From assembly GCA_028691715.1 (NCBI GenBank), contig JAQUYR010000005.1, positions 1 to 35,990 of the forward strand: a stretch of 35,990 bases of DNA, in the 5' to 3' direction. Below are positions 11,889 through 18,741 of the stretch, piece after piece. Both the position numbers and the translations under genes were made by a program. This stretch comes from Bacilli bacterium (GTDB lineage Bacteria > Bacillota_I > Bacilli_A > ML615J-28 > CAG-698). The stretch's first letter is position 1. Each line of letters starts with the position of its first letter. The notes under the pieces were generated by a model. The model saw nothing but the letters and a program-made list of their open reading frames with translations. It made no database searches and was not told the origin of the DNA.

Positions 11889-12839
11889 ATGATGAAGGTT
11901 GCTGCCATACAGTTAAATAATTACCTTGGAGAAATGGTCCAGAGTTTTATTGCTGCTGAAAATTTAATTATTAAAGCAGTTGAAGAAAAAGCAGAAATGG
12001 TTTTCTTGCCTGAATTATCAACCTGTGGGTATATTCCTAATGATGATATTTGGAGCTTTGGTGAAAAATCAAATGGAATAACAAATAAATGGTTATCGGA
12101 GATGTCAAAAAAATATTCAATCTATATTGGTGCTGGCTTTTTAGAATGTGATGGTCATGACTTTTATAACTCATATGCTATTTCTAGTCCTGAAGGAAAG
12201 ATTTTAGGAGTCATTCGGAAAGTAGAACCTGAAGCGTCATGCTTTAAAGGTAGTGATGTTGGAAGCATCATCAATACGCCAGTAGGAAAAATTGCTGTGG
12301 GTATTTGTGCTGATAGCCATAAAAAATGGTTTTTCCAAAGAATGAAAAAGGAGAGACCAGACTTATTAATTCTTCCTCATGCCTGGGCTACACCAAGCAC
12401 TAAAACTGGGATAGTCAAGGATAAAGATATTGAAGATAGTAAAAAGATTGTTCATGATTTCGGAGCAATTTATGCTAGACAATTAAATATACCAGTTATC
12501 TTCATAAATTCTTGGGGAATTATGCCAAAGATGATGGGAATCTTGGGGAAAACTATGTTTACCAATAGGTATTTAATCCAGGGAGCTTCAGCAATTTTTG
12601 ATTCTCATAATCTAGCAGTATATTGTAAAGATGAAGAAAATTATTTAGTTGCAGATATCAGCTTTCAAGACAAGAAAGATGAAGATAACATTAAACAGAG
12701 GTTTTACTGGGGATGGATTCATCCTGGCTCTTGGTTTATCAGAAAGATTATTATTCCCCTTGATATTGCAAAGGGAAAGAAGCATTATCTTAAGAGTAAA
12801 GTGAGAAAAGAAAAGGCCGATGCTGTTTTTGATTTATAA
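11889..12839 (+). CDS. Carbon-nitrogen hydrolase (nitrilase superfamily)
   Basis: Catalytic E/K/C context: VFLPELSTCGY, VIRKVEPE, GICADSHKKWF. Confidence 0.88.
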   Translation: MMKVAAIQLNNYLGEMVQSFIAAENLIIKAVEEKAEMVFLPELSTCGYIPNDDIWSFGEKSNGITNKWLSEMSKKYSIYIGAGFLECDGHDFYNSYAISSPEGKILGVIRKVEPEASCFKGSDVGSIINTPVGKIAVGICADSHKKWFFQRMKKERPDLLILPHAWATPSTKTGIVKDKDIEDSKKIVHDFGAIYARQLNIPVIFINSWGIMPKMMGILGKTMFTNRYLIQGASAIFDSHNLAVYCKDEENYLVADISFQDKKDEDNIKQRFYWGWIHPGSWFIRKIIIPLDIAKGKKHYLKSKVRKEKADAVFDL

Positions 12840-12863: not shown

Positions 12864-13511
12864 ATGAAAATAATAGATATTAAGACATGGAAGGGCAGAA
12901 AACATTATGAGTGGTTTAAGGAATACAAAGTTCCATATTATAATGTAACAATGCGCTTAGATATTACTAAATTTTATAACTATATTAAGAAAGAAGGATA
13001 TTCCTTTTTTATTCCTTTGATGTATATTGTGAATATAGCTCTTAATGAAATAGAAGAATTTCGTTTGCGCATAAGGGGTGAAGAAGTTATTCTTTATGAT
13101 GAGTTATCGCCAGCTTATACGATAATGACTGATGATGGAATTTTTGATAACTGTGAGAATGAGTTTGTTAAGGATTTTAAAGAATACTATCACTTAGCAA
13201 AAGAAGCAATTATTAGGGGAAAAAAGGGAATTGATGATGAAAAAAAATATAATGATCCCAATCGCTTGGATCAACTATATTTTACCTGCCTTCCCTGGAT
13301 TGATTTTTTAAGTGTTACTCATCCGATGACTGATGATAACAACTCATGTATTCCCCGAATTATTTGGGGTAAATACACGAAGAAGGATGAAAATGTTGAA
13401 ATAACTATGGGAATTCAAGTGAATCATGCCCTTGTTGATGGTAAGCCATTATGTGATGGTTTTAACAAAATTCAGGAATTTTTAAACGAACCAGAAAGAT
13501 ATTTGAAATAG
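12864..13511 (+). CDS. Chloramphenicol acetyltransferase-like (CatA-type) acyltransferase
   Basis: FFIPLMYIVNIALNEIEEFRLRI, SPAYTIM, and catalytic-His region QVNHALVDGKPLCDGFNKIQEFL. Confidence 0.8.
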   Translation: MKIIDIKTWKGRKHYEWFKEYKVPYYNVTMRLDITKFYNYIKKEGYSFFIPLMYIVNIALNEIEEFRLRIRGEEVILYDELSPAYTIMTDDGIFDNCENEFVKDFKEYYHLAKEAIIRGKKGIDDEKKYNDPNRLDQLYFTCLPWIDFLSVTHPMTDDNNSCIPRIIWGKYTKKDENVEITMGIQVNHALVDGKPLCDGFNKIQEFLNEPERYLK

Positions 13512-13534
13512 GCCTAATAGGCTTATTTTTTTTT
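13507..13534 (+). terminator. Rho-independent terminator
   Basis: AATAGGCCT-AAT-AGGCTTATT followed by a T-tract. Confidence 0.85.
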
Positions 13535-13555: not shown

Positions 13556-13584
13556 TTGACAAACAGGGATAATATATTTATAAT
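13556..13584 (+). promoter_or_regulatory. Perfect consensus sigma-A promoter
   Basis: TTGACA (13556-13561), 17 bp, TATAAT (13579-13584). Confidence 0.9.
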
Positions 13585-13603
13585 ATATATGTTTTGTTTA
13601 CAT

Positions 13604-13627
13604 TTACTAAACTTAAAGTTTAATATT
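13604..13627 (+). promoter_or_regulatory. Operator-like element 1
   Basis: TTACTAAAC-TTAAA-GTTTAATATT, imperfect dyad. Confidence 0.75.
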
Positions 13628-13634
13628 TTATGAC

Positions 13635-13658
13635 TTACTAAACGATGAGTTTAATATT
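13635..13658 (+). promoter_or_regulatory. Operator-like element 2
   Basis: TTACTAAAC-GATGA-GTTTAATATT; arms identical to element 1, 31 bp away. Confidence 0.75.
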
Positions 13659-13672
13659 AAAGGGAGAAAAAA

Positions 13673-14209
13673 ATGGACATTGGGGTAAAAATAAAAAGAT
13701 TAAGAGTCTTGTGTCAACTCACACAAGAAGAATTGGCAAATCGTTGTGAACTCACCAAAGGGTATATTTCCCAGATTGAGAATGATTTAACAAGTCCTTC
13801 CATTAGTACTCTAACTGACATTTTAATAGCTCTAGGAACAAATTTGAAAGAGTTTTTTAATGATGGTGAAGATGATGAAAAAATCGTCTTTACAAAAGAA
13901 GATTATATTGTGAAGGAAGAAAAAAACCATACGATGACCTGGTTAGTTCCTAACAGTCAGAAAAACGAGATGGAACCAATCCTGTTTACTTTAGAGGCAA
14001 ATAGTGAAACAACAATAGATATGCCCCATGAAGGTCAGGAATTTGGTTACATTCTTGAAGGGGAAATCGTCATCGTTCTTGGTGGAAAAAATATCTCGTG
14101 TAAAAAGGGTGAAACATTCTATTTTACAACTGATAAAAATCACTACTTAAAGAATACTACGAGGAAAATTGCAAAGATTATTTGGGTTACTAGCCCACCA
14201 AACTTTTAG
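13673..14209 (+). CDS. XRE-cupin transcriptional regulator (PuuR-like)
   Basis: HTH IGVKIKRLRVLCQLTQEELANRCELTKGYISQIENDLTSPSISTL plus C-terminal cupin (HEGQEFGYILEGEIVIVLGGK...GETFYF); directly precedes potA. Confidence 0.9.
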   Translation: MDIGVKIKRLRVLCQLTQEELANRCELTKGYISQIENDLTSPSISTLTDILIALGTNLKEFFNDGEDDEKIVFTKEDYIVKEEKNHTMTWLVPNSQKNEMEPILFTLEANSETTIDMPHEGQEFGYILEGEIVIVLGGKNISCKKGETFYFTTDKNHYLKNTTRKIAKIIWVTSPPNF

Positions 14210-14224
14210 AATGGATTATAAGAT

Positions 14225-15739
14225 ATGAGAAAAAAGAATGTGATCATCGAATTAATTGGTGTCTCAAAGGAATTTGATGGAAATACTGTTGTTGATGATT
14301 TTAATTTATATGTGAAAAAAGGGGAATTCATAACCTTTTTGGGCCCATCTGGCTGTGGTAAAACCACCACTCTTAGGATGATTGCTGGCTTTGAAATGCC
14401 GACGACTGGGCAAATTTTGTTAAATGGTCAGGATATTACATCGCTTCCTCCATTTAAAAGACCAGTTAATACTGTCTTCCAGCGTTATGCTTTGTTCCCT
14501 CATTATGATGTGTATGACAATGTAGCTTTTGGTTTAAAGATGAAAAAAATCAAAGGGGAAGTTATAAATAAAAATGGTGAGACTGTTGAAGTCAAAAGAA
14601 AACTAACAGTTGAAGAGATAGATGAGAAGGTTACTAAGGCCTTAAAAATCGTTGATCTTGAGGAGTTTGAATCTCGTGATATTTCCACTCTGTCTGGAGG
14701 GCAACAACAAAGAGTTGCTATTGCCCGAGCAATAGTCAATGAACCAGAAATATTGTTGCTTGATGAACCACTAGGAGCTCTTGATTTAAAAATGAGAAAA
14801 GAGATGCAACTTGAATTAAAGGAAATGCATAAGAAATTGGGAATCACCTTCATTTATGTAACTCATGACCAAGAAGAGGCTTTAACAATGTCAGATACAA
14901 TTGTGGTCATGAAGGATGGTATGATTCAACAAATCGGAACACCAATGGATATTTATAATGAACCAAAAAATGCCTTTGTTGCCGATTTTATTGGTGAAAG
15001 CAATTTATATAATGGAACAATTACGGGAGAAAAACATGTAATGTTCTTAAATCATATCTTTGAGATGGTTGATGATTTTGCTAAGAATGAAAAAGTGGAC
15101 ATCATTATCAGACCAGAAGACATCTTTTTGATGGATAAGGACAAAGGGATGGTCAATGGAAAATTGGTCAGCAAGATATTCAAAGGTGTTTATTTTGAGT
15201 ATGTTATGATGATTGGTAAAAACGAAGTTGTCATTCACGACACTAAAGAATACGATATCAATCAAGTATTAAGTATCTATATAAAACCTTTTGATATTCA
15301 TATCATGAAAAAAGAGTTCATAAACAATGTTTTTGAGGGATACATCACTAAAAATAATAAGGTTGTTTTTGCTGAAGGAGAGTTTGATTGTGATGTTACA
15401 CAATTGATTCCCAATACAATTCTTGATGATGATGGTTATCTAGTCGATAATAAAGGTGTACGTTATGATTTAACTGATGCCGATGTTAAGGTTGAAATAG
15501 GATTAAAGGATATTGATATCAGTGATAATGAAGAAGACGGTGTAGTTATTGGACAGATAGTTTCCATAATATACAAGGGCGATCATTATCAGGTAATCGT
15601 CAGAACTGAAGATTATGATGATTTTGTCATTGATACTGAATATACTTGGAATGAAGATGATACAGTCAGTGTCGCTATTCTTCCTGAAAATATAAAGATG
15701 ACACTAAAGGCTGAGGCTAAAAACTATGTCAAGGATTAG
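14225..15739 (+). CDS. potA: Spermidine/putrescine ABC transporter ATPase, extended C-terminus
   Basis: Walker [35 protein letters not shown]; PotA gene order; 504 aa with a long C-terminal regulatory part. Confidence 0.9.
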
Positions 15740-16523
15740 ATTTTCTCGTAAGCAATTATCTCTTCCATATGCTCTGTTTTTGTTGTTCTTTGTCGTTTTT
15801 CCCCTATTCTTGATAATCTACTATGCTTTTACAGGAAATGATGGGAATTTCACATTAAACAATTTTATTAATTTCTTTAGTGATAATACCAAGCTCAATG
15901 TGCTTTTAATCAGCGTTGTAATCGGCTTTGGTAATACTGTCATTTGCTTATTGCTGGGATACCCAGTAGCGATGATTTTGAGTAACAAAACCTATAATAA
16001 GAGCAAAGTAATTGTAATGCTCTTTGTCATGCCGATGTGGATAAACTTTGTTTTAAGAATTGCCGCAACAAGAGATTTGCTTTATTGGATTGGAATCAAT
16101 GGCGGTGAATATCCATATCTAGCAACCATGATTGGTATGGTTTACAATTATCTGCCATTTACAATTCTTCCTCTTTATACGACGATGTTAAAGATGGATA
16201 AGAGTTTAATCGAGGCTTCATATGATTTAGGAGCCAATAAAAATCAAACATTTGTTAAGACAATAATTCCTATGACAATGCCAGGAGTTATCAGTGCTGC
16301 CACGATGGTTTTCATGCCCACTATGTCCTCTTTTGTCATCAGTGATGTCATGGGAGAGAATAAGATTCAATTAATAGGTAATTCAATTCAACTCAATTTT
16401 GAACAGGGTCAATGGCATAGCGGTAGTCTAATCGCTTTAATTATGTTAATCATTATTGGTATATCTATGTTAGCAACAAAAAATGTTCAAAAACAAGAAA
16501 ATGTTCGTGGTAGTTTATGGTAA
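15726..16523 (+). CDS. potB: Spermidine/putrescine ABC permease
   Basis: Multi-TM, EAA-type loop [23 protein letters not shown]; overlaps potA. Confidence 0.9.
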
Positions 16524-17314
16524 AAAAATTTTTTGCTAAGGCTTATATCATCATAATGCTACTTTTTATGTATGCTCCATTGTTGGTGTTGGCGATATTT
16601 AGTTTTACTAATACTCAAAACATCGGTACATGGAATGGGTTTTCTTTTGAATTATATGGATTAATGTTCAAAAATAAGGACATAATGAATGCCCTTTATA
16701 ACACAATTACCGTAGCTATAGCCTCAAGTATTGTTGCTACTATTCTAGGAACACTAGGAGCTATCGGTATCTTTTATAGCAGTAAAAAAGTAAAGAAATC
16801 AATGGAGGCTGTATCACAAATTCCCGTGTTGAATGCGGAAATAGTAACAGCTCTATCGCTGACAATTCTTTTCGTTTTTGTTGGTATTGAGTTTAATTTT
16901 ATAACTTTATTGATTGGACATGTCGTTTTAACGGTTCCCTTTGTTGTTTTAAGTGTGACACCCAAGTTAAAACAGATGGATCCTAGTATTTATGAGGCAG
17001 CGCTAGATTTAGGAGCAACTCCTAATAAAGCGTTATGGAAAGTTATTATGCCTGAGATTATGCCAGGAGTATTTTCTGGTTTCGTTCTAGCAATCACCCT
17101 GTCTTTAGACGATTATATTATTACGGCATTTACTCGTAATAATTCTTTTCAAACACTGAGCACTTATGTTTATGGAGCTACTGCAAGAAAGGGTGCATTA
17201 CCACCAGCTTTAAGGGCCTTGTCAACAATAATCTTCATTGTCATATTGATTGGCTTGATTGTTGTCAATGCGAAAACTAAAAATAATAATGGAATAAAAA
17301 AGGAGAGACATTAA
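16517..17314 (+). CDS. potC: Spermidine/putrescine ABC permease
   Basis: Multi-TM, EAALDLGATPNKALWKVIMPEIMPG; overlaps potB and potD. Confidence 0.9.
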   Translation: MVKKFFAKAYIIIMLLFMYAPLLVLAIFSFTNTQNIGTWNGFSFELYGLMFKNKDIMNALYNTITVAIASSIVATILGTLGAIGIFYSSKKVKKSMEAVSQIPVLNAEIVTALSLTILFVFVGIEFNFITLLIGHVVLTVPFVVLSVTPKLKQMDPSIYEAALDLGATPNKALWKVIMPEIMPGVFSGFVLAITLSLDDYIITAFTRNNSFQTLSTYVYGATARKGALPPALRALSTIIFIVILIGLIVVNAKTKNNNGIKKERH

Positions 17315-18741
17315 TGAAAAAAACAATTTTTTCTTTACTAGTTATGATTATGGCAGTATTTATTATCACTCAAATCAGTGTAAAGGCTGAAGAAGAAGTA
17401 ACATATTTAAGAGTGTATAATTGGTATGAATATATTGAGGATGGTAAAGACGAAGATGGTAATAAAATTACTACTTCAGTAATGGAAGAATGGGAAGCAG
17501 ATTATAAAGCGAGAACTGGTAAAACAGTTAAGGTTGTATATGATATGTTTGAGACCAATGAGATCATGTTGAACACTCTAAAGACTGGTAAAACCAGTTA
17601 TGATTTGGTTTGCCCTTCTGATTATATCATTCAAAAGATGATTAGGGAGGATATGCTTGAGGAAATAGATCTAACAAAGATTCCTAACTATGTAGCTTAT
17701 GCTTCACCATATTTAAAGCAATTGTTTGCTGATAATGGGTGGACAAATTATGCTATCGGTTATATGTGGGGAACTATGGGTTTCATCTATAATCCTGATA
17801 AGGTTTCTGAGAGTGATATCAGCAGTTGGACAATTCTTTGGAATGAAGCATATAAGAATCGTTCTACAGCTAAAAATAGTGTTCGTGATACTTATATAAT
17901 CGGTGTATTCTATGTTTATCAGGATGAACTAAATCAATTAGCCAGTGATTACAAAAATGAAGTAATTGATGAAGAAACATATAATAAGCAAATCGGTGTT
18001 ATCATGAATAGGACTGATGATGAAACACTGGCTAAGGTTGAAGAAGCTTTGAATTTAATGAAAGCCAATATCTATGGATTTGAAGTGGATAGTGGTAAAA
18101 AAGATATCGTGACTGGTAAGATTGATATCAACTTTGCTTGGAGTGGCGATGCTGTTTATGCCATGGATACAGCAGAAGAAGAAAATGATATGGAATTAAA
18201 TTATATCGTTCCCGATGAAGGCAGTAATGTCTGGTTTGATGGTTGGGTAATGCCCAAAGGTGCTAATGTTGATCTAGCATCTGACTTTATCAACTATTTA
18301 TCTCTACCAGAAGTAGCAGTTAAAAATATGAATAAAATTGGATATACTTCAGCAATCGCTGGTGATGCAATATTTGATCAGATTATCGACTGGTATGGTG
18401 AAGAAGATGGTATAGAAGTCGATTTGAGCTATTTCTTCAATGGTACATTATCAGATGACAGGCTGACTGATGGAAAGGCTATTGTTACAATAAACGAAAG
18501 AGGGCGCCAATTTGATGCTCAATATCCTGATGAAGAAATAATAGCAAGATGTGGTGTTATGGAAGATTTTGGAGACCGCAATGAAGCAGTTTTAGAAATG
18601 TGGCAAAGAGTAAAGGGTAATGAAGTATCAATCTGGGTTATTCTGGGAATTGTTTTGTTCATTTCTGGTGGAGTTGTAGCATATATATTGAATAATAAAT
18701 CTAAGAAAGTCAGAAACAATAGGTTGAAGAAAAGAGTTTAA
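17314..18741 (+). CDS. potD: Spermidine/putrescine-binding protein with a C-terminal TM anchor
   Basis: Signal peptide, LRVYNWYEYI, YDLVCPSDYIIQKM, FDGWVMPKGANVDLASDFINYL; C-terminal hydrophobic WVILGIVLFISGGVVAYIL followed by KSKKVRNNRLKKR. Confidence 0.9.
   Translation: MKKTIFSLLVMIMAVFIITQISVKAEEEVTYLRVYNWYEYIEDGKDEDGNKITTSVMEEWEADYKARTGKTVKVVYDMFETNEIMLNTLKTGKTSYDLVCPSDYIIQKMIREDMLEEIDLTKIPNYVAYASPYLKQLFADNGWTNYAIGYMWGTMGFIYNPDKVSESDISSWTILWNEAYKNRSTAKNSVRDTYIIGVFYVYQDELNQLASDYKNEVIDEETYNKQIGVIMNRTDDETLAKVEEALNLMKANIYGFEVDSGKKDIVTGKIDINFAWSGDAVYAMDTAEEENDMELNYIVPDEGSNVWFDGWVMPKGANVDLASDFINYLSLPEVAVKNMNKIGYTSAIAGDAIFDQIIDWYGEEDGIEVDLSYFFNGTLSDDRLTDGKAIVTINERGRQFDAQYPDEEIIARCGVMEDFGDRNEAVLEMWQRVKGNEVSIWVILGIVLFISGGVVAYILNNKSKKVRNNRLKKRV

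Follow-up and report, generated by a model that had tools for sequence, protein, structure and literature searches.

A conserved lattice of GTTTA/TAAAC half-sites as the likely operator of an XRE-cupin regulator encoded beside polyamine transport genes

An array of GTTTA and TAAAC half-sites lies just downstream of the promoter of an XRE-cupin regulator gene and potABCD in the window (the whole 35,990-nt stretch of DNA that was analysed). The array is very likely the operator of the XRE-cupin protein encoded directly 3′ of it, with autorepression by the same protein. From comparative sequence analysis we have strong confidence that this protein binds the array and that it represses xre-potABCD, and moderate confidence in cooperativity between the modules of the array. 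Because the same operator also heads speA and speD-speE in relatives, the array appears to define a polyamine homeostasis regulon. With some reserve, we favor a regulon widespread in Firmicutes, in which one XRE-cupin protein, acting on a lattice of N7 and N5 dyads, would repress polyamine import and synthesis with a polyamine as co-repressor, and in which operator and regulator would have moved between pot and spe genes in the course of evolution, those of Clostridioides difficile included. Polyamines are central to growth, and their control in Clostridia and in uncultured gut and sediment Bacilli is largely unassigned. The words of the array precede polyamine import and synthesis genes in many gut bacteria, C. 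difficile among them, and this suggests that a single, so far undescribed switch governs polyamine balance.

The promoter is of the sigma-A type (13556 to 13584, forward strand) and matches the consensus at 12 of 12 positions; the −35 element TTGACA (13556 to 13561) and the −10 element TATAAT (13579 to 13584) are separated by 17 nt. It was found exactly where a reading made from the sequence alone (the sequence-only reading) had placed it. An intrinsic-terminator-like hairpin with a T-run after it (13505 to 13529, forward strand) lies 3′ of the upstream gene, which encodes a CAT-fold protein; one such hairpin was found, against 0.0 expected from shuffled sequences. Since the hairpin closes the upstream gene, xre-potABCD (13673 to 18741) looks like a separate unit. 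Its genes, all on the forward strand, are xre (13673 to 14209; 178 aa), potA (14225 to 15739), potB (15726 to 16523), potC (16517 to 17314), and potD (17314 to 18741). PotA, the ATPase of a polyamine ABC transporter, has 504 aa with a long C-terminal part, and it passed the cut-off of the PotA model TIGR01187 (357.4 bits against 355.6), which supports membership in PotABCD. The best models for the permeases PotB and PotC were spermidine/putrescine permeases, below the equivalog cut-offs, and the best model for the 475-aa substrate-binding protein was PotD, also below its cut-off.

The sequence-only reading had drawn two copies of a 24-nt unit with identical arms, TTACTAAAC-TTAAA-GTTTAATATT (13604 to 13627) and TTACTAAAC-GATGA-GTTTAATATT (13635 to 13658), 31 bp apart and downstream of +1. 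Both copies and their distance proved correct for the window, and the placement fits a transcription start predicted near 13591, ~7 nt past the −10. TAAAC-N5-GTTTA is the core inside both 24-mers and has no other match in the window; there were two perfect matches in the window, and only 1 of 100 shuffled windows gave two matches even when up to 3 mismatches were allowed. The unit as drawn is nevertheless incomplete. Its GTTTA and TAAAC half-sites are conserved and the N5 dyad is real, but the 24-nt boundary, the outer TT, and the ATATT are not conserved, and an upstream GTTTA, together with the N7 palindrome to which it belongs, had been overlooked.

That half-site, F0 (GTTTA, 13596 to 13600, forward strand), precedes the first TAAAC with 7 nt between them, which completes a GTTTA-N7-TAAAC-N5-GTTTA triplet. 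The middle member, R12 (TAAAC, 13608 to 13612, reverse strand), joins F0 across N7 and F22 (GTTTA, 13618 to 13622, forward strand) across N5; R12 and F22 correspond to the first copy drawn earlier. The second module consists of R43 (TAAAC, 13639 to 13643, reverse strand) and F53 (GTTTA, 13649 to 13653, forward strand), the latter shortly 5′ of the ribosome-binding sequence. R34 (13630 to 13634, reverse strand) has decayed to ATGAC in the window, and many relatives have AAAAC or TAAAC here. The complete lattice, F0-R12-F22-R34-R43-F53-R65, has all its members present in L046/L064. Of these, the window has F0, R12, F22, R43, and F53; the place of R65 is taken by the ribosome-binding sequence, and the second module is without both outer half-sites.

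One scan retrieved 80 orthologous loci (54 to 85% identity), which together with the window gave 81 leaders; 59 of these, from Bacilli and Clostridia metagenome-assembled genomes and Peptostreptococcaceae, were non-redundant at 80% identity. Spacings between exact GTTTA (F) and TAAAC (R) words in the 59 leaders were compared with 200 dinucleotide shuffles. The most conserved element of the array was GTTTA-N7-TAAAC, which was exact in 54 of 59 leaders (shuffle mean, 0.10; maximum, 2). TAAAC-N5-GTTTA was present in 39 leaders (0.10 expected), and an F-to-F distance of 22 bp was present in 41 (0.08 expected). The 31-bp distance between the two copies is also kept in 12 to 13 of the 59 leaders (F-to-F in 13; R-to-R in 12, with 0.10 expected for R-to-R), and an F-to-F distance of 53 bp occurs in 15. 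When pot leaders of relatives were aligned, the half-sites were retained in 54 to 55 of the 59 diverged leaders; this is the unbiased figure, the alignment itself being anchored on exact F-N7-R, which fixes the F0 and R12 columns by construction. The interior of the N7 site, which was not used for anchoring, is symmetric with an A/T-rich center (GTTTA-g-T-A-W-T-A-c-TAAAC), and the profile of the F22-N7-R34 site resembles that of the first N7 site. Most orthologous leaders have the promoter at the same position, with the −10 mostly ending 6 to 12 nt 5′ of F0. Two Peptacetobacter leaders (L081 and L092) have an extra N5 dyad between −35 and −10, overlapping the −10, and the downstream triplet is also present.

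An N5 neighbor (at most 1 mismatch) accompanied 48 of 65 exact N7 pairs. Conversely, 42 of 52 exact N5 pairs had an N7 neighbor, and the 10 without one include the window's second copy. In speA leaders, N7 occurs mostly without N5. We lean toward N7 as the site of one dimer and N5 as the junction between dimers; it is possible that one protein can bridge either dyad.

A search of the window's own genome (a 1.44-Mb draft, ~82% complete) for the arm pattern returned only the two copies at the pot locus as perfect matches, and not the many unrelated copies that would have spoken against an operator. Weaker matches were at or below the level of the reversed-pattern control, and no regulon beyond the pot site was discernible in this draft-genome scan. 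Among 71 genomes of the family of Tepidibacter, 65 contain the exact triplet, with 68 matches against 3 for the reversed control, or ~1 per genome. Two exact triplets lack pot or spe neighbors (G049:C5 and G099:C332), which is within the control rate of 3 in 71 genomes. The exact and 1-mismatch scans were decisive; at 2 mismatches the family scan was uninformative, with weak matches at the control level. One-mismatch matches in C. difficile that adjoin a LysR-like gene (L141) or have MerR-like and GGDEF/EAL-like genes in their neighborhood (L149; names assigned by eye) look like chance.

The array travels with polyamine genes. Except in two Tepidibacter loci (L061 and L074), potA lies directly 3′ of xre in all orthologous loci, and the order xre-potA-B-C-D is retained in nearly all. 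The same two loci, which have no potABCD beside xre, have the only leaders among the 81 without an N7 palindrome or a near match to it. In Tepidibacter mesophilus, an exact triplet precedes speD-speE (L139), with three N7 sites after TTGACA...TATAGT, and AdoMet decarboxylase and spermidine synthase were confirmed there with Pfam; a triplet with one mismatch precedes a stand-alone potAB (L143). The array precedes speD-speE in two more genomes (L190 and L191), and in G067 an array heads speA-speD-speE and is followed by another that heads xre-potABCD. In G092 and G034, xre is followed by speD-speE, and in G091 it is followed by speE; these xre leaders have N5 cores with degenerate outer half-sites, and the potAB genes of G092, located elsewhere with no adjacent xre, are preceded by an exact triplet. 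The N7 palindrome with at most 1 mismatch, in the form GTTTA-N7-TAAA(C/T/A), was found just 3′ of the −10 in 10 of 10 testable speA leaders, that of C. difficile included (shuffle mean, 0.26; maximum, 3). The target set named earlier, potABCD, was probably too narrow, as relatives appear to add speA, speD, and speE. RNA-seq of a C. difficile fur mutant has shown a rise of CD630_10230, potABCD, and speAHEB transcripts (PMC6311696). CD630_10230 is the C. difficile ortholog of xre and adjoins potA, and the joint rise is as expected under one common repressor but is not proof of one.

The regulator has the XRE-cupin architecture, with HTH_3 (PF01381, residues 7 to 61) and Cupin_2 (PF07883, residues 104 to 172) both above their cut-offs, and, judging from site conservation, a palindromic site adjoins its own gene. 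Its AlphaFold model (pLDDT, 89.6) has helices at residues 3 to 62 and a beta barrel, and its best PDB match is 1y9q, an HTH_3 regulator. Residues K29, I32, S33, and E36 of the recognition helix are invariant among 56 orthologs. We infer binding of the array by the XRE-cupin protein because the recognition helix is invariant alongside the half-site and because gene and operator are linked. The ortholog in G052 (L206/L218) has the same recognition helix, yet its xre leader is without the GTTTA lattice. That leader carries a ATATGAAAG-AAAAA-ATTTCATAT palindrome near the promoter instead. Autoregulation by the XRE-cupin protein, as proposed in the sequence-only reading, gains strong comparative support from retention of the half-sites in 54 to 55 of 59 leaders, from the near-uniqueness of the array in each genome, and from its association with polyamine genes, which holds even where the regulator gene has relocated.

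In the mechanism that we propose, the XRE-cupin protein would read the half-site GTTTA (TAAAC on the opposite strand). The half-sites form two alternating dyads, GTTTA-N7-TAAAC and TAAAC-N5-GTTTA, starting a few bases past the −10. At least two dimers bound next to each other would occlude the transcription start together with the first transcribed bases. Transcription of xre-potABCD would then be stopped at initiation or at promoter escape, and the regulator would thereby limit its own synthesis. The position of the array just past the −10 fits repression through binding at the core promoter. A polyamine in the cupin domain would strengthen repression; we consider a polyamine the probable, though by no means assured, ligand and co-repressor, because all the inferred targets, uptake and synthesis genes alike, raise intracellular polyamine. 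The sequence-only reading had not specified the sign of the response, which is predicted here only from gene content.

The same operator and protein could also work with the opposite sign, a polyamine acting as inducer and freeing the operator of its repressor, by analogy with PuuR and PauR. We consider this unlikely, though it deserves more weight than the other alternatives. PuuR leaves DNA with putrescine, and PauR-controlled genes are derepressed by putrescine or cadaverine (PMC7901475). The regulator shares its domain architecture with both proteins, and the PuuR equivalog NF007408 is its best NCBIfam model; however, it scored 94.3 bits against that model's cut-off of 211. PuuR and PauR have catabolic targets, whereas the putative targets found here are uptake and synthesis genes only, for which induction by the product would create a runaway loop.

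That the array instead belongs to a different regulator is very improbable. One candidate is RR_1586 of C. difficile, a response regulator of the OmpR family. Its predicted sites include a stretch of the pot operator, the C. difficile copy AGTAAACAAAATGTTTAGTAAA before PotABCD, but in the same study RR_1586 favored DRTTAAGNWWW as a direct repeat, and its binding to inverted repeats was weak or absent (PMC6222199). By eye, the C. difficile site fits this motif with about three mismatches, whereas the conserved signal is the mirror-symmetric GTTTA/TAAAC, and presence of the array tracks xre-cupin and polyamine genes. We argue for reassigning this stretch to the XRE-cupin array on the grounds of mirror symmetry and conservation. 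Inspection of the array for the RR_1586 direct repeat, DRTTAAGNWWWDRTTAAGNWWW, revealed no TTAAG direct repeat. Slightly less probable again is action of the repeats in the RNA leader, as hairpins of a riboswitch, an attenuator, or a translational control element. The repeats do belong to the transcribed leader, and the two arms of each dyad could base-pair in the transcript, but the leader folds no better than shuffled sequences (z, −0.36) and no Rfam family was matched. Of 55 leaders, 19 keep the anchored TAAAC arm intact while the arm that would have to pair with it in an N5 hairpin is degenerate, and in several leaders (L081 and L092; G034, G035, G091, and G092) a site is placed between the −35 and −10 or overlaps the −10. 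A chance origin of the repeats, without function, has a negligible probability: weak matches are common in an AT-rich genome, but conservation across diverged species far above that of shuffled sequences already refutes it.

In operators of the λ and SinR types, XRE-type HTH dimers occupy adjacent palindromes near a promoter; the system described here has no recognized relationship to them beyond the HTH, and its effector domain is a cupin. XRE-cupin proteins of Pseudomonas repress neighboring genes from palindromic sites; PauR, ErfA, PsdR, PA0535, and PA4987 are such local repressors, and autoregulation of pauR has been proposed (PMC7901475). They differ from the XRE-cupin protein studied here in their catabolic targets, in derepression by polyamine, and in lineage and gene neighborhood. 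PuuR, the putrescine utilization repressor of E. coli, has in common with it the XRE HTH, the cupin, and polyamine gene targets; it differs in that its targets are catabolic, while here uptake and synthesis genes are the putative targets, a GTTTA/TAAAC lattice makes up the operator, and the opposite sign is expected. A PuuR-type sensor has apparently been rewired from inducer-released to co-repressed control. The protein architecture is known, but we found no published description of this operator or its regulon in a search of openly accessible papers. An operator that marks uptake and synthesis genes would provide a direct means of defining the regulon in many genomes, and CD630_10230 and the pot and spe promoters of C. 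difficile gain a testable role.

Spermidine synthase (PF01564) was not detected in three genomes of the window's genus (G000, G013, and G014); the control was positive in 11 of 14 known genomes. Import is probably the route to spermidine in this genus, because it has no detectable spermidine synthase, though an arginine decarboxylase fusion is present. On contig C25 of the window's own genome (L154:1-2466, reverse strand), one frame of at least 822 aa contains an Orn/Lys/Arg decarboxylase domain (OKR_DC_1) and PAD_porph (agmatine deiminase type), so that an arginine decarboxylase and the enzyme that follows it in putrescine synthesis appear to be fused. The regulon in this organism may consist of xre-potABCD alone, because no array was seen before its arginine decarboxylase (the draft-genome scan gave no site on that contig). 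Two genes 5′ of xre, a carbon-nitrogen hydrolase (11889 to 12839) matches N-carbamoylputrescine amidase weakly (47.6 bits against 410), and a link to polyamine synthesis is possible. The C terminus of PotD has, by eye, a hydrophobic segment and a basic tail resembling a membrane anchor.
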